Assembly: GCA_013140605.1 (NCBI GenBank)
Contig: JABFSL010000125.1
Span: 1 to 36,976, forward strand
Length of the DNA stretch: 36,976 nucleotides
From: Anaerolineales bacterium
GTDB lineage: Bacteria > Chloroflexota > Anaerolineae > Anaerolineales > Villigracilaceae
Direction of reading: 5' to 3'
Shown here one piece after another: positions 3 through 35,836 of this stretch. Numbering within the stretch: position 1 is the first letter of the stretch; every line of letters begins with the position of its first letter. The position numbers and the translations under genes are program-made. Below the pieces are notes generated by a model. That model was not told the origin of the DNA. It saw nothing but the letters and a program-made list of their open reading frames with translations, and searched no databases.

Positions 3-107
3 CGCGTTCGTCTCGCTGCGAGTGTTACTCTTCACAACTTTTGTATCTGGTTCAACATTCAGCTCGGACGTCCCAAACTGGCTTTCGCTGATTTGGTCGT
101 TTGGTGA
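3..107 (+). pseudogene. C-terminal tail of a probable transposase (runs off the left edge)
   Basis: The frame is open from the left edge and stops at TGA 105-107, giving 34 visible residues with the core HNFCIWFNIQLGRPKLAFAD. That looks to me like the last residues of a transposase, judged from memory of the pattern and not from a search. The context supports it: the tail points into the start of a flavoprotein gene that is cut off just beyond it, as expected when an insertion sequence lands in a gene. The rest of the element lies outside the window, so it may be intact. The family cannot be named. Confidence 0.45.
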
Positions 108-112
108 CCATC

Positions 113-172
113 TCACAACAAGCGTTTCAGTCCGCCCGCGCCTGAGCCGATGATGATTGCATCGTAGTTCAT
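113..172 (-). pseudogene. Truncated N-terminus of an FAD/NAD(P)-dependent oxidoreductase
   Basis: Reading the minus strand from ATG 170-172, with GGAGGC just upstream (176-181) as ribosome binding site, gives MNYDAIIIGSGAGGLKRLL and then TGA. The IIIGSGAGG stretch is a textbook Rossmann dinucleotide-binding motif (GxGxxG) at the start of flavoproteins. The protein ends after only 19 residues, where the putative insertion-sequence sequence begins. I read this as the 5' end of an oxidoreductase gene disrupted by the element at 1-110. Which oxidoreductase it was cannot be told from this stub. Confidence 0.6.
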
Positions 173-209
173 GAAGCCTCCGTTATCCCTAATCGAAATA
201 CCTGCTCTT

Positions 210-569
210 TTACTTTCTCCAATCATTCAGCCAACGCGTTTGCCCAACCCATTCGTCGGCTTTTGTCTCCTGCAGAACACGATCCAATGCATTAATGATG
301 TCATTTAAACTCATGCTTTTTTGATAAGCAAGGATGATGCCCGCATGATGCGGATATTGTTCCCCAAGGAAAATAAAATCCCGAATGTTATATGTAAAAA
401 TGGCGCGACCTTGTGCGGTCGCGCCAAGTAATTGTCCTTCATCGCTTGCGTCGAGCGGCATCCATTCAGTGGGCGTGCGGGTGACATCATGTCCGCGTTC
501 GAGCAGGGCATTGTATAAGGCTTTACTGGATGTGTCTGCATCAAGATGCAAGTGCAGTTTTTTACTCAT
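210..569 (-). CDS. DUF5615-type PIN-like toxin of a toxin-antitoxin pair
   Basis: This is a 119-residue protein. The N-terminus LHLHLDADTSSKALYNALLE, with a histidine and acidic residues close to the start, and the middle GRAIFTYNIRDF followed by HAGIILAYQ are typical of DUF5615 PIN-like proteins. These are predicted metal-dependent RNases that act as toxins. The start codon overlaps the end of the upstream gene by 8 bp, so the two are translationally coupled. The partner has a DUF433-like region, the usual companion of DUF5615. The family call rests on pattern recognition; RNase activity is inferred. Confidence 0.75.
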   Translation of the reverse strand: MSKKLHLHLDADTSSKALYNALLERGHDVTRTPTEWMPLDASDEGQLLGATAQGRAIFTYNIRDFIFLGEQYPHHAGIILAYQKSMSLNDIINALDRVLQETKADEWVGQTRWLNDWRK

Positions 570-9960: not shown

Positions 9961-10008
9961 ATACCCCATGGGGCATAGTGTTGACGACCCAAAAGAATTG
10001 GGTATAAT
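9961..10008 (+). promoter_or_regulatory. Promoter of the oligopeptide transporter operon with upstream palindrome
   Basis: TTGACG (9981-9986) and TATAAT (10003-10008) with a 16-bp spacer form a near-consensus promoter. Just upstream, CCCCATGGGG (9964-9973) is a perfect 10-bp palindrome within the near-palindrome ATaCCCCATGGGGcAT (9961-9976). Its position immediately upstream of the -35 suits an activator or repressor site. The predicted leader before the first gene is about 140 nt. Confidence 0.6.
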
Positions 10009-10082: not shown

Positions 10083-10166
10083 ATGATATTGCGTACGTTA
10101 CTATTGTGTCCAAAAATATCACCCCTATATTTCTTCTTTGGAGGAGAAAAAAATTATGTTACGTAA
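10083..10166 (+). CDS. Possible leader peptide in the Opp operon 5' region
   Basis: This 27-codon frame (starts MILRTLLLCPKISPLYFF) has AGGA 8 bp upstream of its ATG and ends 11 nt inside the binding-protein gene. Translation could therefore couple to that gene. A much stronger Shine-Dalgarno-like AAAGGAGGT at 10058-10066 is too far upstream to serve it, and no start codon lies at the right distance from it. The frame may be chance, and I give it low confidence. Confidence 0.2.
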   Translation: MILRTLLLCPKISPLYFFFGGEKNYVT

Positions 10167-12048
10167 CCGTATGTTTTTCGTCCTGGGCTTGTTGGTTGTA
10201 GCCAGCATGATCCTTACTGCTTGTGGTGGCGCTGCAACTCCTGCCGCAACTGAAGCCCCCGCCGTGGCCCCAGCTACTCAAGCTCCTGAGGTTATTCCGA
10301 CTGAAGCTCCCATCACTGCGACTTCCTACACCACACCTCACCCCATCCTTGGCGACCTCAAAGTTCGTCAGGCTCTTTCCTACTGCACCAACAAAGCTGA
10401 TTTGATCAAGTCGGTTTATCCTTTGCTTGATGAAGCAACACAAGCCAGCTTGGTTATGAACACCTTCATCCCGACCAGCCATTGGGCTTATGCCGGCGAT
10501 GAGAACATCACCATTTATGAATTTGATCCTGCCAAGGGTGCCGCTTTACTCGATGAAGCTGGCTGGACTTTGGGTGAAGGCGCGGACATCCGCACCAACG
10601 CCAATGGCGATGCGCTTGCTTTGAAATTCACCACCACCTCCGCTGCCTTCCGCCAGACTTGGGCCGCGATCTGGGAAGCTCAGATGGCTGAGTGCGGTGT
10701 TCAAGTTATCCGCTTGCATGCCCCCGCTTCCTGGTGGTTCGGTGATACCACTGGTATCGCCCGCCGTGACTATGAACTCGGCGCTTTCGCCTGGGTCGGT
10801 CAGGCTGATCCCGGTGGCCAGACCCTCTATGCTTGTGATCAGATCCCTCTGCCCGAAAACGGCTGGGTAGGTCAGAATGCAATGGGTTGGTGCAATGAAT
10901 TGGCCAGCACAAACATCAAGCTTGCCAACAATACCCTCGTCAAAGATGAGCGTATTGCTGCTTACACCATTGTTCAACAGGAATTCACCAAAGATGTCCC
11001 GAGCATTCCGTTGTTCAACCGCACCGAGACCTTCGCGACCGCGGCTGACCTCTCTGGTTTTGCTCCGATGCCCGGACAAGAATATTACAACTACAACGTA
11101 GGCGAATGGGAAAAAGCTGGTTCTGACACAGTCATCCTTGGCTTCACCCAGGAACCCGCCTCTCTCTTCACACTCGTTGAAGATGCCTTTGTAGCGAACA
11201 TTGCCTATCAGATCATTCGCCCTGCACAGGAAACCCACCTGAATTACGAATTCAAGAATTCAGAAATCATGAAAGACCTGCCCACCATTGAAAACGGCGG
11301 CACAGTCAATAATGATGTGGAAGTTGCTGAAGGCGCGAAAGTTGTGGATGCCGATGGTAATGTTGTTGACCTCGCCGCTGGCGTATTCGTCCTCAACTCT
11401 GCTGGTGAGAAAGTTGAATTCACCGGTGGTACCGTTACGATGAAGCAATTGGTTTCCAAGTTCGCACTTGCTGACGGCGTGAAATGGGAAGATGGTACAC
11501 CTGTTACTGAAGCCGACCTCGCACTTGGCCAGAAGATCGCTTGCGATCCCGAATCCGGCGCGACCTCCTTCATCACCTGCGATAAGACCGCCAGCGCTGA
11601 ATTCGCTGACAATGGCTATACCCAGACCTGGTTACCTGGCGTTCAGGATCCGCTATACTTCGTTCCTGTTTGGCCGATCTATCCTGCTCATCAGTTGGGC
11701 GATCTTGCCGCCAAGGATTGGGCGACCGATCCCCGCGTAGCTGAGACTCCTCTTTCCTATGGCCCCTACAAGATTGTTGAATGGGTCAAGGGCGAGAAGA
11801 TGGTCTTCGCTGCCAATGAGAACTGGGTAGGCACTCCTGCCAAGTCCCCGAACCTTGTCATCCAGATCATCACCCCCGAAAGCGCAGAAGGCTTGCTCCT
11901 CGGTGGCGAAATTGACATCCTCGATTCCACTTCCTTGGCTGGTCTCTCTGAGACCATGGCCGCAGCCGAAGCCGAAGGCAAGATCGTAACCTTCGTAGAA
12001 GCTGGCGCTACCTGGGAACATATCGACGTTCAATTGTTCCTCCGCTAA
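10156..12048 (+). CDS. Circularly permuted peptide/solute-binding lipoprotein (SBP family 5)
   Basis: This is a 630-residue extracytoplasmic ligand-binding protein for the ABC transporter encoded next. The start is ATG 10156, with GGAGGAG 9 bp upstream. A lipoprotein signal (hydrophobic 6-20, lipobox LTAC, Cys23) is followed by a Thr/Ala/Pro linker to about 60. The order of the two family-5 halves is reversed. Residues about 61-318 (LGDLKVRQALSYCTNKADLI, LLDEAGWTLG, VPSIPLFNRT) match what is normally the C-terminal half. Residues about 325-630 (LGFTQEPASLF, FALADGVKWEDGTPVTEADL, PLSYGPYKIVEWVKGEK) match the N-terminal half. The protein stops at EHIDVQLFLR, where the other half would normally begin. 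The paralogue at 16591 keeps the ordinary order, giving an internal control. Confidence 0.9.
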   Translation: MLRNRMFFVLGLLVVASMILTACGGAATPAATEAPAVAPATQAPEVIPTEAPITATSYTTPHPILGDLKVRQALSYCTNKADLIKSVYPLLDEATQASLVMNTFIPTSHWAYAGDENITIYEFDPAKGAALLDEAGWTLGEGADIRTNANGDALALKFTTTSAAFRQTWAAIWEAQMAECGVQVIRLHAPASWWFGDTTGIARRDYELGAFAWVGQADPGGQTLYACDQIPLPENGWVGQNAMGWCNELASTNIKLANNTLVKDERIAAYTIVQQEFTKDVPSIPLFNRTETFATAADLSGFAPMPGQEYYNYNVGEWEKAGSDTVILGFTQEPASLFTLVEDAFVANIAYQIIRPAQETHLNYEFKNSEIMKDLPTIENGGTVNNDVEVAEGAKVVDADGNVVDLAAGVFVLNSAGEKVEFTGGTVTMKQLVSKFALADGVKWEDGTPVTEADLALGQKIACDPESGATSFITCDKTASAEFADNGYTQTWLPGVQDPLYFVPVWPIYPAHQLGDLAAKDWATDPRVAETPLSYGPYKIVEWVKGEKMVFAANENWVGTPAKSPNLVIQIITPESAEGLLLGGEIDILDSTSLAGLSETMAAAEAEGKIVTFVEAGATWEHIDVQLFLR

Positions 12049-12065: not shown

Positions 12066-12101
12066 AATTGTGGGGTAGGCGAGATCGCCTACCCCACAAT
12101 T
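12066..12101 (+). promoter_or_regulatory. 16-bp perfect stem-loop between binding protein and permease genes
   Basis: Arms 12066-12081 and 12086-12101 (AATTGTGGGGTAGGCG and its complement) pair perfectly around the loop AGAT. No T-tract follows (next bases taacta), so full termination is unlikely. In Opp/Mal-type operons such hairpins stabilise the binding-protein mRNA and reduce read-through into the permease genes; that role is inferred here. Confidence 0.65.
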
Positions 12102-12150: not shown

Positions 12151-13350
12151 ATGACTGCATATTTAATCCGCCGAGTTTTGCAATCAATCCTGGTCGTTTT
12201 TATTTCAGCTGTGGCTTCTTATGTTCTGCTGAGTTTTGCTCCCGGGGGACCATTATCTGGTTTGCGCCAAATTCAACAAGGCGGCCGCTTTAAGATCACC
12301 GAAGAAGATATTGCCCGTATTAGAGCCTCTTTTGAGTTGGATCTCAACCTTCCGATCCGATTTAGCCGTTGGCTGGTCGGCGCTCCGAAAGGCCCGATCA
12401 CGATGGGCGGAAAAGAATATTTTGCCGATACGGTGGTTGGGTGCCGCAAGCCGATTGAAGCTGAAGTCACCAATTCGCGCGGTACGCTGGAAATAATAAC
12501 AGTGGGTTGTAAGGAAGAAGTATTACTAAAGGATCTTGTTGGCCGCCGTACAAGCCGCGGCATTCTCTTTGGCGATTTTGGTTTATCCTGGCGTCTTTTG
12601 CGTGACCGCCCTGTAAGTGATCTGATCGCCAGCCGCATTCCCAAGACCCTGCAATTGATCGGTCTTGAAACGCTATTATCCTTGATCATTGGCATTCCGC
12701 TCGGCATTTATTCCGCCGTCAAACAATATTCCAGGTTTGACTATATTTTTACAACTCTGGCTTTTATGGGGTCAGCCATGCCGAGTTTCTTTTTCGGTCT
12801 ATTGTTCATTTTATTATTTTCGATCCTGCCGAAGGGTGCGGGCTTGCCTTACATTCCTGCCGGCTTGTCTGAATCGGTACGCAATTACACCATTCCTTTG
12901 ATAGGTGATGTTATAGCCGGTTCAGCAAAAGATAGAACCCTGCATTTGATATTACCTGTCGCAGTGTTGACAATCCTCAATATTGCAGGATGGAGCCGCT
13001 TTATTCGCGCCAGCATGCTGGATGTGCTGCGCCAGGATTATGTCCGCACAGCGCGCGCAAAAGGATTGAGCCAGAACGTGGTAATTATGAAGCATGCTCT
13101 TCGCAACGCGTTGATTCCATTTATTACAATTGTGGTTTTCACCATTCCGGGCCTGTTTGGCGGCGCGATCATTACAGAAAGTATATTTGCCTGGCCGGGC
13201 ATGGGACGCTTGTATATTCTTGCCCTCGGTGATTATGACTATCCAGTGGCGATGGCGCTTTTCTTCATCTTGTCTGTATTGACTGTTATCGCAACCCTGT
13301 TGCGCGATATTCTGTATACGATTGTGGATCCCCGTATCCGCTTACACTAG
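12151..13350 (+). CDS. Oligopeptide ABC transporter permease, DppB/OppB type
   Basis: This is a 399-residue inner subunit of the peptide importer. The N-terminal TM1 (YLIRRVLQSILVVFISAVAS) and the ELDLNLPIRFSRWL segment are standard. The C-terminal part has five further helices and the EAA-type coupling loop RQDYVRTARAKGLSQNVVIM before HALRNALIP. It is longer than usual: residues about 77-137, between RWLVGAP and GILFGDFGLSW, are extra. They carry two cysteines (VGC at 96-98 and 118-120) and would lie outside the membrane. GGAG 5 bp upstream supports ATG 12151. Part of a five-gene transporter operon. Confidence 0.93.
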   Translation: MTAYLIRRVLQSILVVFISAVASYVLLSFAPGGPLSGLRQIQQGGRFKITEEDIARIRASFELDLNLPIRFSRWLVGAPKGPITMGGKEYFADTVVGCRKPIEAEVTNSRGTLEIITVGCKEEVLLKDLVGRRTSRGILFGDFGLSWRLLRDRPVSDLIASRIPKTLQLIGLETLLSLIIGIPLGIYSAVKQYSRFDYIFTTLAFMGSAMPSFFFGLLFILLFSILPKGAGLPYIPAGLSESVRNYTIPLIGDVIAGSAKDRTLHLILPVAVLTILNIAGWSRFIRASMLDVLRQDYVRTARAKGLSQNVVIMKHALRNALIPFITIVVFTIPGLFGGAIITESIFAWPGMGRLYILALGDYDYPVAMALFFILSVLTVIATLLRDILYTIVDPRIRLH

Positions 13351-14404: not shown

Positions 14405-15439
14405 GTGGCAACTAATAATCAATCACCTTTGCTTGAAGTACGCAATCTAAAGACTTATTTCTATACCGAAGATGGTGTTGTACACGCTGTGGATGGCGTG
14501 GATTTCTATGTCAATTCCGGTGAAGTTCTGGGCATCGTAGGTGAATCGGGGTGCGGTAAAAGCGTTACTTCCCTTTCGATCATGCGTCTGATCAGCCAGC
14601 CCGGCAAGATCGAGGCCGGTGAGATTTTATTTGAAGGCAAGGATCTGGTAAAAGCCACTGAGGAAGAGATGATGAAGATACGCGGCAACCGCGTTTCCAT
14701 GATCTTCCAACAGCCTCAGTCTGCGCTTAATCCCGTCTTTCGTGCCGGTGACCAGATATCCGAAGTGTTGAATATTCATCAGGACTTCGGCAAGGAAGCG
14801 GGTCAGAAACGCGCCGTGGAACTGCTCAAGCTGGTTGGCATTCCTGAACCTGAAAGCCGCGCGCAGTCATTTCCGCATGAATTGTCCGGCGGCATGGCGC
14901 AGCGTGTCATGATCGCCATGGCCTTGGCTTGTGTGCCAGACTTGCTCATCGCGGATGAGCCTACCACAGCGTTGGATGTGACAATTCAAGCGCAGATCCT
15001 GGATTTGATGCGCGACATGCGCACCCAGTTGGGGTCGGCTATGATCTTGATCACCCATGACCTGGGTGTGATCGCCGAAATGGCAGATCGCGTGGCTGTT
15101 ATGTATGCCGGTGAGATCGTTGAACAATCACCGGTTGCGTCACTCTTTGATGAACCGCTTCATCCCTACACAAAGGGATTGATCGGTTCGATACCAGTTC
15201 TGGGTGAAGTACGTGAGCGGTTGGATGTCATCCCTGGTTCGGTTCCGAACCTGGTGAATCTGCCCACTGGTTGTCGCTTTGCGCCGCGCTGTATGGCGCG
15301 CGTTGAGCACAATCTGTCCATTTGTGCTGACAAGCGCCCCGAGTTGGTTGAGGTTTCTGAGGGACACAAAGTACGTTGCTGGCTTTATCAGGATTCCGGC
15401 CAGCATGTCGCCCCCATAAAGCTCGGAAACAAATCCTAA
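14405..15439 (+). CDS. Oligopeptide ABC transporter ATPase, DppD/OppD type
   Basis: This is a 344-residue cytoplasmic ATPase powering the importer. Motifs: Walker A GESGCGKS (46-53), Q-loop [10 protein letters not shown], signature [16 protein letters not shown], Walker [10 protein letters not shown] and switch His in [15 protein letters not shown]. The C-terminal oligopeptide extension holds four Cys (CRFAPRC, SICAD, VRCWLY), the pattern that binds an iron-sulfur cluster in OppD/F proteins. The start is GTG 14405 with GGGAG 6 bp upstream. Confidence 0.95.
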
Positions 15440-15455
15440 AAGAGATGATGTGGCT

Positions 15456-16451
15456 ATGAACAACATAAAAATGCAAACTCAAGAGAAGCCCGACCTGCTG
15501 ACTGTAAAAAATCTTACGAAATACTTCCCGGTTCGTTCCGGCGTTTTTCAGCGCACTACTGCCTGGGTACAGGCTGTGGATAAGGTAAGTTTCGCGATAA
15601 AAAGCGGTGAGACGTTGGGGATGGTGGGTGAATCAGGTTGTGGAAAGACCACAGTCGGCCGTTCTCTTTTACGCCTCATCGAACCGACTTCCGGGGAAGT
15701 TTCTTTTAATGGCGAAGACATTATCAAGATGCGCCCCAAATCACTTAAAGCCGTACGCCGCGATATGCAGATCATTTTCCAGGATCCTTATGCATCTCTC
15801 AACCCACGCATGCCCATTGGCGAAGCTGTCATGGAAGGCTTGCAGATTCACAAGATCGGCCAGCCCAAGGAGCGTTGGGAAATTGCCATCAACATGTTAA
15901 AGAAGGTTGGGCTTGAGGAATATCATGCCCGTCGTTATCCGCATGAATTCTCCGGCGGACAGCGCCAGCGTATTGGTATTGCCCGCGCTTTGGCTTTACA
16001 GCCAAAATTCATTGTTTGCGATGAGCCTGTATCTGCGTTGGATGTTTCCATTCAATCTCAGGTTTTGAACATCCTCAAAGATCTGCAGAAGGAATTCGGT
16101 CTTACTTATCTTTTCATCGCGCATAATCTTAGCGTGGTGGAGCATATTTCTGACCGTGTGGCTGTGATGTATCTTGGCAAAATGGTGGAACTTACCGGGC
16201 GGGATTCGCTTTATCGTGAGCCTCTGCATCCCTATACCAAGGCTTTGCTCTCCGCAATTCCCGTGCCCCATCCCGAAGTCAAACGTGACCGAACCATTCT
16301 TAAGGGCGATGTTCCCAGCCCGCTGAATCCGCCCAAGGGTTGCCGGTTCCACACCCGCTGCCCTGTAGCGATTGCGCGCTGTTCACAGGATGAACCAGAA
16401 TTTAAAGAAGCCAAGCCTGGCCACTGGGTGGCCTGTTGGCTGGTGGAGTAA
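15456..16451 (+). CDS. Oligopeptide ABC transporter ATPase, DppF/OppF type
   Basis: This is the partner ATPase of the importer. It has Walker [16 protein letters not shown]-loop [13 protein letters not shown], signature [16 protein letters not shown], Walker [13 protein letters not shown] and switch His in [16 protein letters not shown]. The Cys-rich C-terminal extension ([17 protein letters not shown]) fits an iron-sulfur-binding tail. ATG 15456 or GTG 15450 could be the start: AGAG at 15441 is 11 bp from the first and 5 bp from the second. I list the ATG. A strong terminator follows the stop codon. Confidence 0.93.
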
Positions 16452-16458
16452 AATTTGG

Positions 16459-16484
16459 AAGACCGCCGAAAGGCGGTCTTTTTT
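16459..16484 (+). terminator. Rho-independent terminator of the Opp operon
   Basis: AAGACCGCC-GAAA-GGCGGTCTT forms a 9-bp stem with a stable GAAA tetraloop, followed by TTTTATT. It lies 8 bp beyond the dppF stop codon. Confidence 0.9.
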
Positions 16485-16537: not shown

Positions 16538-16594
16538 ATGGTTCGTAAAATTAAGCATCCTCACGTGCAAATCAATACTGGCAGGCAATCATGA
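16538..16594 (+). CDS. Possible 18-codon upstream ORF coupled to the second binding protein
   Basis: The frame begins ATG 16538 ([18 protein letters not shown]) and its TGA overlaps the downstream ATG as ATGA (16591-16594). The layout would couple translation of the binding-protein gene, which itself has only a weak AGG-type ribosome binding site. Nothing else supports it, so it may be chance. Confidence 0.25.
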
Positions 16595-18519
16595 AAAAAA
16601 CACTTCCCATTGTGCTATTCATCTTTATCGTTATCACCGCTTGCGGGCTTTCCCAGGCAGCGCAGACCGAGACACCCACTGCAATCGTTACACCGCCACC
16701 CTCACCGACAACCCCGCCTGAGTCCCGTTCTCTTTCGATCTGTCTTGGACAGGAACCCAATACCCTCTATCCTTTGGGTGAGTTGAATGCCGCCGCGCGT
16801 AGTGTTCTGGCCGCTGTAAATGACGGCCCAATTGATATGGTCGGATATGATTATCAGCCTGTGATCATCACACGGATGCCGTCGTTTGAAAACGGCGACG
16901 CTGAGATCGTCAGAACGCCGGTACAGGCTGGAGGTCAGGTGGTGGATGCGGATGGGAATCTTGTCGCATTGGCCACTGGTATCCGCGTCCGTCCCGCTGG
17001 ATGCCGCGGCGATGATTGTGTCATTACCTATGATGGCGCCACCCCGCTTGAAATGGATCAAGTGGTCGTGAACTTTAGTCTGCGCCCGGACCTGACCTGG
17101 GCGGATGGCACACCAGTTACCGCTGATGATTCTGTTTATGCATTCACGCTTGCTTCTGACCCGAACGCGGTTGTAAAATCCTTTTTGGCTGAACGCACGC
17201 AGATCTATGAGGCCACCGACTCTCAAACGATCCAGTGGTGGGGCAAGCCCGGTTATATTGACCCGGCGTATTTCACCAATATTTGGCCTCCTGCGCCGAA
17301 ACATATATGGGGTGATTTTTCCGCCGCAGATTTGCCTAGTATTGACATCGCATCCCGTTCTCCGCTCGGTTGGGGTCCCTACATGATCGAAGAATGGATC
17401 AAGGGCGATCACATTACCATGACGAAGAATCCGTACTACTTCCGTGCGGCAGACGGCTACCCTAAGTTTGATACACTCTCATTCCGCTTCATTGAGGACC
17501 CGAACATGGCTCTGAGCGAGATGGTGGCCGGACGCTGTGACATTCTCGACCCAACCATTCGGCTTGATAATCACGCGGGCTTGTTGCAGGAAATGCAGGC
17601 CGGCGAACAGGCTCAAGCCTTCTTTGTACCCGGTATGACCATTGAATGGCTTGGGCTTGGTATTACACCCGCTTCCTATGATGATGGTTATGAGCCGGTG
17701 CGTCAGGGAGACAGGCAGGATGTTTTTGGAGATGCTCACACTCGTCAGGGCATTGCTTATTGTCTTGACCGTGATAGTGTTGTGAAGGATGCGCTTTATG
17801 GTCTGACAACCGTACCCGCAACCTATATTCCCGTTGGGCATCCGCTATACGATACCAATATAGATGCGCTTCCTTATAACCCTGAAACTGGGATTTCCCT
17901 GCTGGAACAGGCTGGCTGGCGTGATGTGGATGGTGATCCATCCACGCCCATTACTGCGGTCAATGTGATCAATGTCACCCCGGGTACGCCTTTGAAACTT
18001 AATTACTACACCACAACGGCTACACAGCGCAGGCAGGTGGTGGATATCCTTGAGAAATCACTTGCCCAATGCGGCATTGGCTTGAATGTGGAATATTTCT
18101 CACAGAACGATCTTTACTCTCCCGGTCCTGATGGATTCCTCTTTGGCCGCCACTTTGACTTGATTGAATATGCAATGGGTGTGAATAGCATCGAGCCTCC
18201 ATGCGGCTGGTTCACCACGGATGAAATTCCCACAGCCTCCAACTTGTGGATCGGTACGAACGTAACCGCATATAAGAACGAGGAATTTGACGCGGCCTGC
18301 CGCAGTGCCCAATTGTCTTTGCCGGACGAACCATCTTATCTTGAATCCTACCGTCAGACACAGGTGCTATTCTCAACCGAGCTTCCCGCCATTCCACTGT
18401 ATTATCGTTTACGGATCGCTGCGGCGCGCCCCGATCTTTGCCATTTTGATCTGGACGCAACTGCCAATCCGCTTTGGAATATTGAAGCGTTCGATATGGG
18501 CGAAGCCTGCAGGAATTAA
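16591..18519 (+). CDS. Peptide/solute-binding lipoprotein, SBP family 5 (normal domain order)
   Basis: This is a 642-residue extracytoplasmic binding protein with a lipoprotein signal (lipobox ITAC, Cys18), then a Thr/Pro linker to about residue 45. The order is canonical. N-terminal half: ICLGQEPNTLYPL, a subfamily insert GGQVVDADGNLVALATGI, and LTWADGTPVTADDSVYAF, then LGWGPYMIEEWIKGDHI. C-terminal half from about 377: VFGDAHTRQGIAYCLDRDSV, LLEQAGW, and LPAIPLYYRLRIA. It is the same subfamily as the permuted protein at 10156 and probably serves the same transporter. It has its own promoter-like sequence after the operon terminator. Confidence 0.92.
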   Translation: MKKTLPIVLFIFIVITACGLSQAAQTETPTAIVTPPPSPTTPPESRSLSICLGQEPNTLYPLGELNAAARSVLAAVNDGPIDMVGYDYQPVIITRMPSFENGDAEIVRTPVQAGGQVVDADGNLVALATGIRVRPAGCRGDDCVITYDGATPLEMDQVVVNFSLRPDLTWADGTPVTADDSVYAFTLASDPNAVVKSFLAERTQIYEATDSQTIQWWGKPGYIDPAYFTNIWPPAPKHIWGDFSAADLPSIDIASRSPLGWGPYMIEEWIKGDHITMTKNPYYFRAADGYPKFDTLSFRFIEDPNMALSEMVAGRCDILDPTIRLDNHAGLLQEMQAGEQAQAFFVPGMTIEWLGLGITPASYDDGYEPVRQGDRQDVFGDAHTRQGIAYCLDRDSVVKDALYGLTTVPATYIPVGHPLYDTNIDALPYNPETGISLLEQAGWRDVDGDPSTPITAVNVINVTPGTPLKLNYYTTTATQRRQVVDILEKSLAQCGIGLNVEYFSQNDLYSPGPDGFLFGRHFDLIEYAMGVNSIEPPCGWFTTDEIPTASNLWIGTNVTAYKNEEFDAACRSAQLSLPDEPSYLESYRQTQVLFSTELPAIPLYYRLRIAAARPDLCHFDLDATANPLWNIEAFDMGEACRN

Positions 18520-29506: not shown

Positions 29507-30433
29507 TTACTCGCCTCCATCGGCCGCGCAGCGAAAACCGATCTGGCTGTCGAAGAAGTGCTGGGGTGTGCCGATGGCCCGTGATGTTGCACGCAAATAT
29601 TGTGACAGACTTTTAACGCCGCCCCCGCGCAAAGTTTTGTAATCGCCGAATCCTGGTCCCTGTGGATCGTTGGCTGGTGAAGTTGAATAGTAGTCCGCCT
29701 GATACCAGTCATTGACCCATTCCCATACATTGCCTGCCATGTTCAACACGCCGTACGGACTGGCTCCATTTGGATAATCTTCCACGTTGGCTGTGCGGCA
29801 GGTTTTGCTGTACCCGCATCTGGGGGCGGTTGGATCGGTGTTGATGGTTTTGTCGCATCCAAAATAATTTGCATGGGCGCAATCGAGCGAGTTTCCCCAC
29901 GGGTAGAGGCGGCCATCTGTTCCGCGCGCGGCTTTTTCCCACTCCGCTTCAGAAGGGAGCCGCCTGCCAGCCCATTGACAGTATTCCTCAGCGGCGTCAG
30001 AGGCGTAGACAAAGGCGGGAAAATTTTGATAGTCTGGATGAACAGCATAAGGGATGAAGCTTGAAGCGGTCGTTTCGTATACATCGGGACGGCAGGCACC
30101 GGCATCCAGGCATTTGAGAAAGCTGACGTTGGTCACTTCGGTGCGGTCAATCCAAAACGCATCCAGATGAACTTTGTGCTGGGGTTTCTCATCTTCATCG
30201 GCCAGAGGATCATTTTCATTTGCCCCCATGATGAATTCCCCGGCAGGCACACAGATAAGGGTTACACCATCCACAGGAGATGTCCAGGTTTGGCCGATGC
30301 TCGTACATTCACCGGGCGATGGAGTATTGGTCGGTGATGGAAGTTGGGAATCGGTTGATATGACAGCCTTACGGCCGCAAGCGGTGCTTATCAATATGAA
30401 GATGAATAGAAAGAGAATATAAACGCGTTTCAA
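29507..30433 (-). CDS. SUMF1/FGE-fold lipoprotein
   Basis: This is a 308-residue surface lipoprotein. The start is TTG 30433, supported by GGAG 6 bp upstream. The signal peptide ends in lipobox STAC (Cys19), followed by a Ser/Thr/Pro linker. The domain is the formylglycine-generating-enzyme fold: LICVPAGEFIMGANENDPLA, FWIDRTEVTNVSFLKCL, CQWAGRRLPSEAEWEKAARG, YPWGNSLDCAHAN, NMAGNVWEWVNDWY and, at the end, LRGGG followed by IGFRCA. Many such proteins lack oxidase activity and bind ligands or metals. It is divergent from the TIR gene at 30685 and paralogous to the one at 32163. Confidence 0.87.
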   Translation of the reverse strand: MKRVYILFLFIFILISTACGRKAVISTDSQLPSPTNTPSPGECTSIGQTWTSPVDGVTLICVPAGEFIMGANENDPLADEDEKPQHKVHLDAFWIDRTEVTNVSFLKCLDAGACRPDVYETTASSFIPYAVHPDYQNFPAFVYASDAAEEYCQWAGRRLPSEAEWEKAARGTDGRLYPWGNSLDCAHANYFGCDKTINTDPTAPRCGYSKTCRTANVEDYPNGASPYGVLNMAGNVWEWVNDWYQADYYSTSPANDPQGPGFGDYKTLRGGGVKSLSQYLRATSRAIGTPQHFFDSQIGFRCAADGGE

Positions 30434-30565
30434 TTCTTTCTCCGATCGTGTAAGGGTATTGTACCGCCGGATTTAAACCAGATTAATTGGATACCCGTGG
30501 CCAACTTTGCAGCAGACCTGCCCCAGCCCCGGATTCGCCGCTCAAAAACCATCTTAATGCTCGTG

Positions 30566-30581
30566 TTCGGTTGTATAATTT
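30566..30581 (+). promoter_or_regulatory. Repeated promoter core, copy 1
   Basis: TTCGGTTGTATAATTT contains a perfect -10 (30574-30579) and lies about 100 bp before the TIR gene at 30685. The identical 16-mer occurs at 32101-32116 and 34741-34756. The preceding bases ATGCTCGTG here resemble TTGCTCGTT at copy 3. Confidence 0.6.
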
Positions 30582-30684
30582 CAAAGACGGGAAATCAAAC
30601 CAAAACTTCTTACACGTTTATGACCCTTCGTGGTCGGATAGTAAATTTGGCGGTAATTTTAATTGTAAATATAAGGACATCATT

Positions 30685-31983
30685 ATGACCACTTTCATTT
30701 CCTATTCCAGAGTAAATTCGGATTTCGCGGTTAATATTGCAAAAGATTTGAGGTCAGCGGGGTTTGATATTTGGCTGGATCAACTTGATATCCCCACGGG
30801 TTCCCGTTGGGATGATGAACTGGAGAAGGCGCTGGATCGATGCTCAACGTTCCTGATCGTTCTGTCGCCCGAATCCATCAAATCGCAGAATGTTAAAGAT
30901 GAAATTGGTTACGCCATTGATGGGGGCAAGCATATCCTGCCTGTGTTGATTAAAAATTGCAAAATTCCGCTCAGGTTGAGACGGTTCCAGTTTGTGGATT
31001 TTACCGATGATTCATACAAGGAAAGTTTGGATCAAATCAAACAGATGCTTGGGAATACCAGCGAGTTACAGAAAGGGGATAAGGCTTCAGACAAAGTGGA
31101 AGATGAGTCTGCTCTTGTAAAGTCGCTGCTTAAGTGGAAGCCTCAACTCCCATATATCGTTGGCGGTATTGTCGTGATCGCGCTGGCATTTCTCTTCACT
31201 GGAAGATTCATGGCGGCTGGATCGACTCCAGCGGGGGATGTAACCATCACGCCCGCGCAAACATCCACGCTGATTCCTGCCACTGAGACGATAACATCGG
31301 TACCAACTGAATCAGCTACGCCGCCCGAACCCACCTCGACACTTGTACCAGCGACCGACACGCCTGTGCCTACTTTTACGCCCATTCCGACTGTGGAGAT
31401 TGGGCAGGATTGGATCATCGGCTGCGTCAGTAGTAAGTGGCAAATATATCCTTCAGCTCCAACAGTTGAAAGAGGCGATGGTTGTTGGGTGGAACCTGTT
31501 ATCAATACATTTTCTGCGGAGAATGGCGACCTGGATTTTCTGGCTGAGCGTGGAAGCGGGGATGCTGAAATCTACGGGTTATTTGCGCGCCTGCCGGAAA
31601 GCGGGACCGTCACATTCACAGTCCGCCTCAGGGATTTGGATAATGCCGACCTTTTGATGGGGGTTTTCCCCGAACCAGATGTGGCTTCACAAGGTTTATT
31701 AATGACCATTCTGAATGGTGATGTGAATAAGCGTTCTATCGATCAAAAAGACCCCTTGACCTATGTGACCGTTAACAGGACATCGGCTCTCAACCAGGGA
31801 AACGGTTTTTCGGTTTCATTTACATTCACAACACTCTCGGCCACCAGCAGGGTGAACCCCAGTGTTTTCACCACGAATCAAGTTTCCATTCGATCACCTC
31901 AAAAGTGGCTCTTTTTGGGATTTAAGGGTTTGAGAGGGCAGTATCGAATCGAAGGGACATTCCTGAATTTCGATTTGAGATGA
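30685..31983 (+). CDS. TIR domain, transmembrane helix and extracellular domain protein
   Basis: This is a 432-residue protein. ATG 30685 is chosen because AAGGA lies 7 bp upstream and the TIR fold begins right there; the frame is open further up but without TIR sequence. Residues 1-122 form a TIR domain: TFISYSRVNSDFAVNIAKDL, FDIWLDQLDIPTGSRWDDEL, FLIVLSPESIKSQNVKDEIG (candidate catalytic Glu73). Residues 154-176 are one TM helix (YIVGGIVVIALAFLFTGRF). A Thr/Pro-rich stalk follows (185-236), then an about 190-residue beta-rich domain I do not recognise. Topology would be cytosolic TIR and external C-terminus. Its TIR is of a different type from the other two. Confidence 0.85.
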   Translation: MTTFISYSRVNSDFAVNIAKDLRSAGFDIWLDQLDIPTGSRWDDELEKALDRCSTFLIVLSPESIKSQNVKDEIGYAIDGGKHILPVLIKNCKIPLRLRRFQFVDFTDDSYKESLDQIKQMLGNTSELQKGDKASDKVEDESALVKSLLKWKPQLPYIVGGIVVIALAFLFTGRFMAAGSTPAGDVTITPAQTSTLIPATETITSVPTESATPPEPTSTLVPATDTPVPTFTPIPTVEIGQDWIIGCVSSKWQIYPSAPTVERGDGCWVEPVINTFSAENGDLDFLAERGSGDAEIYGLFARLPESGTVTFTVRLRDLDNADLLMGVFPEPDVASQGLLMTILNGDVNKRSIDQKDPLTYVTVNRTSALNQGNGFSVSFTFTTLSATSRVNPSVFTTNQVSIRSPQKWLFLGFKGLRGQYRIEGTFLNFDLR

Positions 31984-32007
31984 CATGCCTGACGAAATTG
32001 AGATCAA

Positions 32008-32041
32008 AAAAGCTAGTCCGCTGCGGGACTGGCTTTTCATT
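32008..32041 (+). terminator. Terminator after the TIR-TM gene (cassette copy A)
   Basis: AAAAGCTAGTCC (32008-32019) and GGACTGGCTTTT (32026-32037) pair with one wobble around a 6-nt loop and end in the T-run. The right arm plus CATTT is repeated exactly in the terminator at 34674-34708. Confidence 0.8.
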
Positions 32042-32100
32042 TATTATGCCCTCACCGAATTCCCCGACTCTGACTGTCAATCAAAATTTACAGAGTTGTT

Positions 32101-32116
32101 TTCGGTTGTATAATTT
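32101..32116 (+). promoter_or_regulatory. Repeated promoter core, copy 2
   Basis: This is the identical TTCGGTTGTATAATTT, 46 bp upstream of the SUMF1-fold gene at 32163, with -10 at 32109-32114. Confidence 0.6.
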
Positions 32117-32162
32117 TAATCAGATATTTCACCAAGATAAAACATAATACCCAGAATGCGTA

Positions 32163-32963
32163 ATGATGAAACCAGCTAAAATTTTTCTCTTTATTTTGAT
32201 AGCATTTGGAATGCTTTCCTGTCAGATAATTCCTCTTGCGGCGAACCCTACTGCAACGACCCTGCCTTTGTCCGCTGAAATCGCGGATGCCAAAGGTGTG
32301 ACCATGCGCCTTGTCCCGGCGGGGCCATTCATCATGGGCCGCGACAACGGGTTTGATCAGGAAAAGCCCGCTCATACCGTTACACTCGTTGACTTTTACA
32401 TGGATGTGTATGAAGTTACCCAGACACGTTATAAAGAGTGCGTGACTAGTGGAGTGTGCAGTGAGCCGAAGGATATCCCAAACATTGATTCGTTCTATAG
32501 CGAACCAGATCACCCAATGACGAATGTTGACTGGTATCGAGCAAAAACCTACTGCGAGTGGCACGGCGCCCGCCTGCCCACAGAAGCAGAATGGGAAAAA
32601 GCCGCGCGCGGCACTGATGGTCGCACTTATCCCTGGGGCGAGGAGATTGATTCCACGTATGCCGACTACGGTGATAGTGTTGGGGGGACCAGCGCGGTTG
32701 GAGCATATGAAAAGAACATAAGCCCGTATGGCATGTATGATATGGCTGGCAACATCTGGGAATGGACGGCAGATTCCCTTGTGGCTTATCCAGGTAATCA
32801 GGGGCCACAGAATTACTATCGCGAATCTGAACGCGGCCTGCGCGGCGGCACATGGTACCACGGCGAACCTGCGATCTTGACCACCACATTCCGTTTCGCC
32901 ACCTTTCCTGAGGATGAGGAACACTATATTGGATTTCGTTGTGCCAAGGATGCGACCCCGTAA
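32163..32963 (+). CDS. SUMF1/FGE-fold lipoprotein (second copy)
   Basis: This is a 266-residue surface lipoprotein with lipobox GMLSC (Cys20 counting from the first of two adjacent ATGs). The FGE-fold segments are MRLVPAGPFIMGRDNGFDQE, FYMDVYEVTQTRYKECV, CEWHGARLPTEAEWEKAARG, YPWGEEIDSTYADYG, YDMAGNIWEWTADSL and LRGGTWYHG ending IGFRCAK. It is shorter than the copy at 29507, which has a longer stalk. It lies between a TIR-TM gene and a decayed TIR fragment. The function is probably ligand binding or modification at the cell surface; no partner sulfatase or ergothioneine gene is present. Confidence 0.87.
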   Translation: MMKPAKIFLFILIAFGMLSCQIIPLAANPTATTLPLSAEIADAKGVTMRLVPAGPFIMGRDNGFDQEKPAHTVTLVDFYMDVYEVTQTRYKECVTSGVCSEPKDIPNIDSFYSEPDHPMTNVDWYRAKTYCEWHGARLPTEAEWEKAARGTDGRTYPWGEEIDSTYADYGDSVGGTSAVGAYEKNISPYGMYDMAGNIWEWTADSLVAYPGNQGPQNYYRESERGLRGGTWYHGEPAILTTTFRFATFPEDEEHYIGFRCAKDATP

Positions 32964-34792: not shown

Positions 34793-35836
34793 ATGCCCGA
34801 ATCGAAACGCCCCTTGAAAGTATTTTTATGCCACGCCCACGCGGACCGTGACCCCGTGCGCGGACTCTACTCCCGCCTGACCCAAGACGGCGTAGACGCG
34901 TGGCTCGACAAAGCCAAACTCCTCCCAGGGCAGGATTGGGAATTGGAGATTCGCAAAGCCGTGCGCGAAGCGGATGTGGTGGTGGTTTGCCTTTCAAAGC
35001 AGTTCAATCAGGCAGGGTTTCGACAAAAGGAAGTGCGTCTTGCTCTCGATACCGCCATGCAGAAACCCGAAGGTGAGATTTTTATTATCCCTGCACGGTT
35101 GGAAGAATGTGACAATCTCGAAAGCCTGAGAAAATGGCATTGGGTGGATTTGTTTGAAGACGATGGCTATGAAATGCTTGTGCGGGCATTGAATGTGCGA
35201 GCGAGTCGTATTGATGTTACTTTATCCTCCAAAATTGAAAAATCCGTTTTAGAAAAGAAATTTGCAAAAAGCCCAAATGATGTTCGAGCAAATAGTGTGG
35301 AAGTTGGCGGCAATGTTTCTGATAGTGTGATTGTGATGGGTAATGGAAATGTAATAAATTTGAGCGCCCAATCCGCATTTTCACGACAAGAAAAGCCAGT
35401 AAATGAGCAGTCTACGTTTCATAATACGTCTGAAGAAATAAAAGCTCATATTGAATATGGACTGTATAGTGAAGCTTATAAAAAATGCATACTCCTTTTG
35501 TCCCAAGGGGAAAACAGCGCTTTGATTAATTTGTTCGCAGGTATTGCATATGCCCTAAATAAAGGAGAGAAGAAATTACGCGACAATGATATGCAAATCA
35601 TTAATAAACATATCTCTTTAGCTATTCAGGACAGTAAAGTGTGTCCTACTGCATTGGCTGTATTAGGTTGTATAAAATATGGCTATCATTATCTAAATAA
35701 AATGTACGATTCTTCCCACCTGACTTTAGAGTTTATAAGAAAAGAACTCCAAACAAAAGCAGACCCCATTGATAAAGAATTATTAAAGTTGATTGTTCCC
35801 ACCGAATACGCACTAGGGTTTCTAGGCATCCAATAA
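34793..35836 (+). CDS. TIR protein with glycine-rich beta linker and helical C-terminal domain
   Basis: This is a 347-residue protein. Residues 1-135 form a TIR domain: PLKVFLCHAHADRDPVRGLY, VDAWLDKAKLLPGQDWELEI, VVVVCLSKQFNQAGFRQKEV (candidate catalytic Glu80) and IFIIPARLEECDNLESL. Residues 165-190 (NSVEVGGNVSDSVIVMGNGN) match the short beta-strand linker often seen in bacterial NTPase and TIR conflict proteins between effector and sensor parts. Residues 210-347 are helical, TPR-like (EYGLYSEAYKKCILLLSQGE, LFAGIAYALNKGE), with no family recognised. DNA becomes visibly AT-rich from about 35200, inside the gene. The next gene follows after 13 bp. Confidence 0.85.
   Translation: MPESKRPLKVFLCHAHADRDPVRGLYSRLTQDGVDAWLDKAKLLPGQDWELEIRKAVREADVVVVCLSKQFNQAGFRQKEVRLALDTAMQKPEGEIFIIPARLEECDNLESLRKWHWVDLFEDDGYEMLVRALNVRASRIDVTLSSKIEKSVLEKKFAKSPNDVRANSVEVGGNVSDSVIVMGNGNVINLSAQSAFSRQEKPVNEQSTFHNTSEEIKAHIEYGLYSEAYKKCILLLSQGENSALINLFAGIAYALNKGEKKLRDNDMQIINKHISLAIQDSKVCPTALAVLGCIKYGYHYLNKMYDSSHLTLEFIRKELQTKADPIDKELLKLIVPTEYALGFLGIQ

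Follow-up and report, generated by a model that had tools for sequence, protein, structure and literature searches.

A circularly permuted family 5 substrate-binding lipoprotein encoded beside Opp transporter genes in Chloroflexota

The gene at 10156–12048 of the window (the whole stretch of DNA analyzed here, 36,976 nucleotides) encodes a 630-residue protein in which the C-terminal half of substrate-binding protein family 5 (SBP5) comes first and the N-terminal half second. The protein is a natural circular permutation: compared with an ordinary relative it gives two off-diagonal blocks, and the usual chain ends are joined. We consider it very likely (probability about 0.86) that the product is a functional, lipid-anchored binding protein serving an Opp-type ABC importer. 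The basis of this reading, which is shown below, is the swapped order, its conservation, the single clade formed by the permuted proteins, the operon position, purifying selection, and the predicted folds of the halves; ligand, expression, and transport are inferred.

The Two Halves of the Protein Are Swapped

The gene and its immediate upstream region contain the following features, all on the plus strand.

9981..10008, +, sigma-70-like promoter, TTGACG-16-TATAAT (11 of 12), the best plus-strand match in the scanned region
10140..10146, +, GGAGGAG, ribosome-binding site for the ATG at 10156, read from the sequence
10156..10224, +, lipoprotein signal peptide with lipobox LTAC and Cys at residue 23, read from the translation
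10225..10335, +, low-complexity Ala/Pro/Thr linker, residues 24–60, from the translation; pLDDT is below 50 for residues 1–59
10336..11103, +, usual C-terminal half in first position (domain III, hinge strand 2, C-terminal tail), residues 61–316, from BLASTP, profile pieces, and the model match to 4oet
11104..11148, +, junction of the usual C terminus with the usual N terminus, residues 317–331, a conserved gap between HMM hits
11125..12045, +, normal N-terminal half placed second, with hinge strand 1 at its end, residues 324–630, from BLASTP, profile pieces, and the model match to 2d5w

The C-half motifs VRQALSYC (residues 70–77), LLDEAGW (131–137), and VPSIPLF (281–287) precede the N-half motifs TQEPASLF (331–338), GVKWEDGTPV (441–450), and EHIDVQLFLR (621–630). 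When the protein was compared by BLASTP with the ordinary paralogue encoded at 16591, two off-diagonal blocks were found. Residues 332–605 match residues 54–339 of the paralogue (130 bits, E 5e-36, 34% identity), and residues 64–302 match residues 378–619 (82 bits, E 2e-20, 26% identity). Just two other matches were returned, one in the signal peptide and linker (E 0.11) and one due to chance (E 2.9).

The Pfam family SBP_bac_5 (PF00496) is matched in two stretches, with 134 bits against a gathering cut-off of 32.4. It is the sole Pfam family matched at E<=0.1, and both halves belong to it. In a profile search of the genome itself, SBP_bac_5 positions 200–358 fall at 10309–10830, followed by positions 17–183 at 11449–11949. 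Collinearity with the SBP5 profile thus fails for this protein, in contrast to the ordinary neighbor at 16591. Because the chain order is swapped, we describe the protein as one that works like SBP5 proteins and not as a canonical member.

The junction lies around residues 317–331, at about 11113 in the window, and its length is conserved. In 102 of 103 permuted ORFs, the C-to-N join spans 14–16 residues from one HMM hit to the next; in 96 of the 103, the chain stops 6 residues past the N profile (ORFs not deduplicated in either count). At the cut point, 28 ordinary ORFs have a loop of 12–22 residues. Of 77 permuted ORFs, 59 have a lipobox that passes a strict filter, and the dN of the linker ranges from 0.10 to 0.55 among the permuted relatives.

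An initial annotation, made from sequence alone, had claimed the reversed halves, the motif positions, a junction at about residue 320 (near 11115), and ordinary order for the 16591 paralogue. All four claims held, the first by BLASTP blocks, Pfam, and profile order and the last by the profile and by end-to-end structure matches (50 of 50).

The Swapped Order Is Conserved in Related Genomes

Same-order homologues were found in 20 of 61 genomes (the genome itself and 60 relatives) at E<=1e-170, with near-full-length matches; outside those 20, the best match was a half-match at 5.9e-47. At E<=1e-60, such homologues are present in 36 of 301 genomes drawn from the order and in 43 of 400 drawn from the phylum, the genome itself included in both sets. 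The 43 comprise 8 genomes from the order itself, 6 others from the class, and 29 that share only the phylum. Two of the 43 matches are partial (G540 and G562), and one match in each of the order and phylum sets contains a stop (G289 and G641). The permuted gene also occurs in single-contig genomes (G026, G198, G428, G443, and G474), and relatives with the swapped order reach down to 37% identity.

An HMM-order test identified 87 ORFs with the C half before the N half, copies of one gene included; a deduplicated set holds 78 distinct cases. In addition, a named genome collection was scanned with exact peptide patterns, which catch close relatives only. This yielded 24 loci, 23 of them permuted, including one from Bellilinea caldifistulae GOMI-1. 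The titles of the 23 name Chloroflexi, Anaerolineales, Anaerolineae, Anaerolineaceae, Anaerolinea, or Bellilinea, and some of these loci probably duplicate genomes of the other sets. The remaining locus encodes an ordinary-order protein of Umezawaea. A search of plasmids returned 77 records, none of which reached 60% identity or covered 80% of the query. The permutation is an old event, present in more than one class of the phylum and family-wide rather than local, which goes beyond what the initial annotation had claimed.

Two loci with damaged or divided copies were also observed. At L114:4428-5573 (minus strand), a decayed permuted copy has its C half fused straight to the last N-half residues, followed by unrelated sequence. 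At L116:2051-4250 (minus strand), the coding sequence is divided at the C-N join, with each half in its own frame and the frames overlapping; this could be a frameshift, an error, or a true split.

The Permuted Proteins Form One Clade under Purifying Selection

For phylogenetic analysis, the proteins were cut into N and C halves, and 29 thinned permuted rows were analyzed with 23 ordinary rows in quick searches. The permuted rows form one clade, with SH-aLRT support of 100 for the combined halves, 86 for the N halves, and 99 for the C halves. In the combined tree, the sister of this clade is a 17-row ordinary clade that holds the 16591 neighbor (support 86). The sister is unresolved in both half trees, and both forks contain the same 17-row ordinary clade. 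The trees are limited by long ordinary branches and by an N-half outgroup that is not one side of a branch.

The dN/dS ratio is 0.13–0.20 in 10 of 10 pairs, with values of 0.08–0.14 for the C half and 0.14–0.28 for the N half. The permuted family is thus one clade that is under purifying selection over both halves.

The Permuted Gene Precedes Opp Permease Genes

Downstream of the permuted gene, the window contains the following features, again on the plus strand.

12066..12101, +, stem-loop with a perfect 16-bp stem, located between the SBP gene and oppB; folding of 102 nt gives -34.7 kcal/mol, z -6.0
12151..13350, +, oppB permease, BPD_transp_1, 144.6 bits
13322..14368, +, oppC permease, BPD_transp_1 and OppC_N
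14405..15439, +, oppD ATPase, ABC_tran and oligo_HPY
15450..16451, +, oppF ATPase, with the two families matched by oppD
16457..16482, +, hairpin resembling a terminator, after oppF and before the ordinary SBP gene, from a scan in which 13 such sites were found and 11.4 expected, barely above chance
16591..18519, +, ordinary-order SBP5 lipoprotein, placed in the ordinary clade that adjoins the permuted clade, from BLASTP, Pfam, the tree, and the model match to 4oet

Stem-loops such as the one at 12066 are often found after abundant binding-protein genes. The initial annotation had also held that the promoter was kept. A promoter-like site is indeed present at 9981..10008, but the scan gave 15 such sites where shuffles predicted 11.1.

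The gene order is shared by the relatives. An oppB gene lies directly downstream of the permuted gene in 68 of the 78 distinct cases; none was seen in 2 others, and the flank is too short in the remaining 8. All four genes, oppBCDF, are present downstream in 19 of the 23 loci L041–L063, and the other four loci end before the set is complete. Of the 61 distinct cases whose upstream flank is long enough, 12 have an ordinary SBP5 gene, or its end, immediately before the permuted gene and 49 do not; the other 17 of the 78 lack the flank. Four of the 12 upstream proteins are present in the tree, all inside the ordinary clade that adjoins the permuted clade. The claim that the permutation is clean, keeps the secretion signal and operon place, and leaves a working protein is supported by the relatives, the downstream oppB, the model, and dN/dS.

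Ten proteins encoded beside the operons of L121, L122, and L117 were searched for families and gave no clue to the substrate. They include a helicase, a response regulator, Maf, a phosphoesterase, a methionyl-tRNA synthetase, a histidine kinase, an Mrr-type nuclease, and a subtilase, and one has no family. No NCBIfam equivalog was found for the permuted protein; the best hit was Opp4A, with 122.9 bits against a cut-off of 650.

Elsewhere in the window, two sulfatase-modifying-factor-like lipoprotein genes flank a TIR-like protein, with a second TIR-like protein after them (29507–32963 and 34793–35836); all of these assignments were made by eye.

The Predicted Model Shows an SBP5 Fold in Each Half

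The AlphaFold2 model of the permuted protein, made with 24 permuted rows only, is of moderate confidence (pLDDT 76.4, pTM 0.72); residues 192–222 are strongly conserved yet have a pLDDT below 50. On comparison with solved structures, the alignment stays inside one half in 47 of 50 listed rows (Z 17.9–21.0, at most 257 residues). In the first half, model residues 60..320 match residues 248..494 of 4oet (NikZ), with Z 21.0, an rmsd of 2.9, and 235 residues aligned. In the second, residues 319..618 match residues 1..301 of 2d5w, with Z 20.6, an rmsd of 2.6, and 257 aligned. For the remaining three rows (4pft_B, 3drh_A, and 6lzq_A), the range extends into the other half with merely 210–244 residues aligned. 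The ordinary 16591 neighbor, with a weaker model (pLDDT 69.2), matches end to end in 50 of 50 rows; its residues 44..636 correspond to 3..494 of 4oet, with 464 aligned. Each half of the permuted protein, as modeled, has the SBP5 fold. That the two halves pack into one clamshell is an inference made without coordinates.

The EppA hinge consists of two strands, 295–302 and 531–538, and domain III starts at 303 (PMC7312458). The second half of the permuted model aligns with EppA 35..304. In SapA, domain Ia comprises 35–68, 230–312, and 532–561, domain Ib 69–229, and domain II 313–531 (PMC8519434), limits that agree in layout with the EppA-based reading. Together with the model alignments, these limits place the cut at the crossover between the lobes, from hinge strand 1 to domain III, so that one covalent strand instead of two should link the lobes. 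Both the cut position and the single strand are inferred from alignments without coordinates. Likewise, the 14–16-residue join would suffice to connect the native termini, an inference made without distances. An altered hinge, which the initial annotation had raised as a possibility, fits the inferred cut position relative to the EppA hinge strands; altered ligand release remains conjecture in the absence of binding data.

Ordinary relatives (alignment A2, including 16591–18519) have cysteines near both chain ends, with C51 and C640 invariant in 15 rows. A C51/C640 disulfide, if formed, may staple the termini that the permuted protein joins by a peptide; we regard this inference as no more than possible.

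The Same Genome Encodes Two Other Permuted SBP5 Lipoproteins

A profile search of the genome itself revealed two more SBP5 lipoproteins out of order, so that 3 of its 8 SBP5 genes are permuted.

G000:C86:11409-13142 (L126:3395-5143), second permuted SBP5 lipoprotein, 578 residues, with two permease genes downstream
G000:C98:35998-38595 (L127:2499-5096), minus strand, third permuted SBP5 lipoprotein, 866 residues, with an extra C-terminal stretch, then two permease genes

Residues 68–449 of the C86 protein correspond to HbpA2 (3tpa) 131–507 and residues 456–565 to 7–123, from which a cut in domain Ib is inferred. Residues 124–292 of the C98 protein correspond to 7fi3 390–568 and residues 542–731 to 106–292, from which a cut in domain Ia is inferred. 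At E<=1e-60, the C86 protein has matches in 36 of 251 genomes of the phylum, but three of these matches extend only to about residue 452 and are possibly ordinary; the C98 protein has matches in 18 of 251. The strongest mutual matches of the three permuted proteins start at the signal peptide, and their SBP5 matches to each other are weak. Given these weak matches, the different cut points, and the different nearest solved relatives, the simplest explanation is that the permutations are independent, although no tree was made for C86 and C98. Permease genes follow each of the three.

We counted by reading rows, calling a gene permuted when a later profile piece precedes an earlier one. In eight Chloroflexota genomes, 11 of 64 SBP5 genes are permuted, including one in G021 that rests on a full-length C98 match and leaving out one G474 fragment. 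The figure is biased, since six of the eight genomes were chosen as known carriers; G327 has none permuted among three. As a small outside control, three proteobacterial plasmids and the genome holding L064 gave 0 of 63 permuted, all 63 rows being collinear. In four Chloroflexota genomes, no swapped pair was seen among 50 SBP_bac_1 rows, a few of which are partial, and 11 of 11 Peripla_BP_6 rows were collinear; small shifts could escape both counts.

Three large or fused frames were also seen. A 3860-residue ORF at L128:4306-15885 combines a PnrA-like Bmp domain with an SBP5 unit that aligns collinearly with residues 56–569 of the permuted C86 protein at 44% identity. A giant ORF at L129:2-6751 (minus strand; 2250 residues in the stretch read) contains a Bmp domain and, toward its C terminus, one SBP5 half (profile 170–353). 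At L134:1489-3822 (minus strand), the last part of a Peripla_BP_6 domain is joined in one open frame to a permuted SBP5 of the C86 type.

Discussion

The permuted protein is homologous to the Cluster C (SBP5) binding proteins, and by inference, without binding data, it most likely works like them. The chain would begin with the signal peptide and linker, continue into domain III and hinge strand 2, pass next through the first lobe, whose C-terminal tail now precedes its N-terminal part, and end with hinge strand 1 as the C terminus. The protein may still close on its ligand like a Venus flytrap and pass it to OppBC. The lipid tether would enter beside the hinge at domain III, as opposed to the native N terminus in the first lobe of ordinary proteins. 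Peptides or other Opp substrates are expected for the SBP5 family. The substrate here is likely a peptide or another Opp substrate, a judgment that rests on family knowledge and not on binding data.

We infer a single origin within Chloroflexota, in which a tandem duplication would have been followed by fusion of the C half of one copy to the N half of the next copy and by loss of the outer halves. The duplication and trimming suggested by the initial annotation fit this scheme by inference only: the event is old, an ordinary SBP5 is directly upstream in just 12 of 61 cases, and no N-C-N-C intermediate was seen among the relatives examined.

Four alternatives were considered. The first, which is unlikely, is that half-genes of two different SBP5 paralogues were fused, so that the protein is a chimera and not one gene permuted. 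In its favor, permutation by duplication always takes the halves from two copies, and the permuted clade sits in an unresolved fork of the half trees, so the sisters of the two halves could differ. Against it, the N halves form one clade and so do the C halves, both forks contain the 17-row ordinary clade, and the combined tree joins the permuted clade with it at a support of 86.

A second alternative is that permuted chains fold with partners, as a domain-swapped dimer or by pairing with the ordinary SBP of the same locus. An ordinary SBP5 is often nearby (at 16591 in the window and directly upstream in the 12 cases above), and just one covalent hinge strand should be left. However, L121–L123, from another class of the phylum, show no ordinary SBP5 near the permuted gene, and the single-chain model is reasonably confident, which makes this very unlikely.

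Equally improbable is an SBP that has given up transport for another role, such as that of a sensor or an adhesin. This could be suspected from the relative of the C86 protein within a 3860-residue ORF, from the decayed copy at L114, and from the divergent members L112 and L113, which show no lipobox. It is opposed by oppB directly downstream (68 of 78), full oppBCDF (19 of 23 loci), dN/dS, and the stem-loop between the SBP gene and oppB. Finally, an assembly join of two neighboring SBP gene fragments, conceivable in a 132-contig draft, is all but excluded: same-order relatives in dozens of assemblies, single-contig ones included and down to 37% identity, rule out an artefact, and the junction length is conserved with purifying selection across both halves.

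With one permuted gene as the preferred reading, the protein can be compared with known systems. It shares with the Cluster C (class II) proteins OppA, DppA, NikA, Thermus thermophilus 2d5w, Campylobacter jejuni NikZ (4oet), and EppA (6wm7) the Pfam family SBP_bac_5, the folds of the halves, the Opp operon, and lipoprotein export. It differs in its swapped order, in being cut where hinge strand 1 crosses over to domain III, and, by inference, in having a single covalent hinge strand. TpMglB-2 (Tp0684), for which the name "Type Ic / Cluster Bc" has been proposed, is a naturally permuted glucose-binding lipoprotein (PMC4990184). In both cases, a lipid-tethered ABC binding protein has undergone natural circular permutation, and the new order is conserved across a family. 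In contrast, TpMglB-2 has the Cluster B (Type I) fold with three N-lobe strands moved to the C-terminal end, and it gained a fourth hinge crossing, whereas the covalent crossings here should, by inference, fall to one. Membership of Cluster Bc was considered and rejected, since both halves are SBP_bac_5 with no other Pfam family at E<=0.1. Permuted pieces of a periplasmic binding protein have also been engineered from ribose-binding protein (PMC9815098), but these were studied as halves and not as a natural whole protein. No permuted Cluster C binding protein was found in the literature searched, which was mostly open-access and mostly at title and abstract level. Within that literature, a natural permutation was already known in Cluster B; the Cluster C case, recurring with different cuts, is new.

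The recurrence is the surprising part, and either selection or merely frequent tandem SBP5 duplication could account for it. A bolder reading, toward which the evidence does not quite tip, is that Chloroflexota have permuted SBP5 lipoproteins at least three separate times (at the hinge, in domain Ib in G000:C86, and in domain Ia in G000:C98, the cuts being inferred from alignments), each before Opp-type permease genes, and have kept them because a moved tether or a looser hinge helps docking or ligand release. The authors of the TpMglB-2 study suggest membrane tethering as a possible reason for its permutation (PMC4990184). If the bolder reading is true, that idea would become a testable rule.

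For annotation the family is a caution, as profile-based methods split permuted genes. Permuted SBP5s are also a possible source of scaffolds for biosensors. An old family in more than one class, together with one genome that holds three differently cut SBP5s, provides natural experiments on chain order, hinge number, and tether position.
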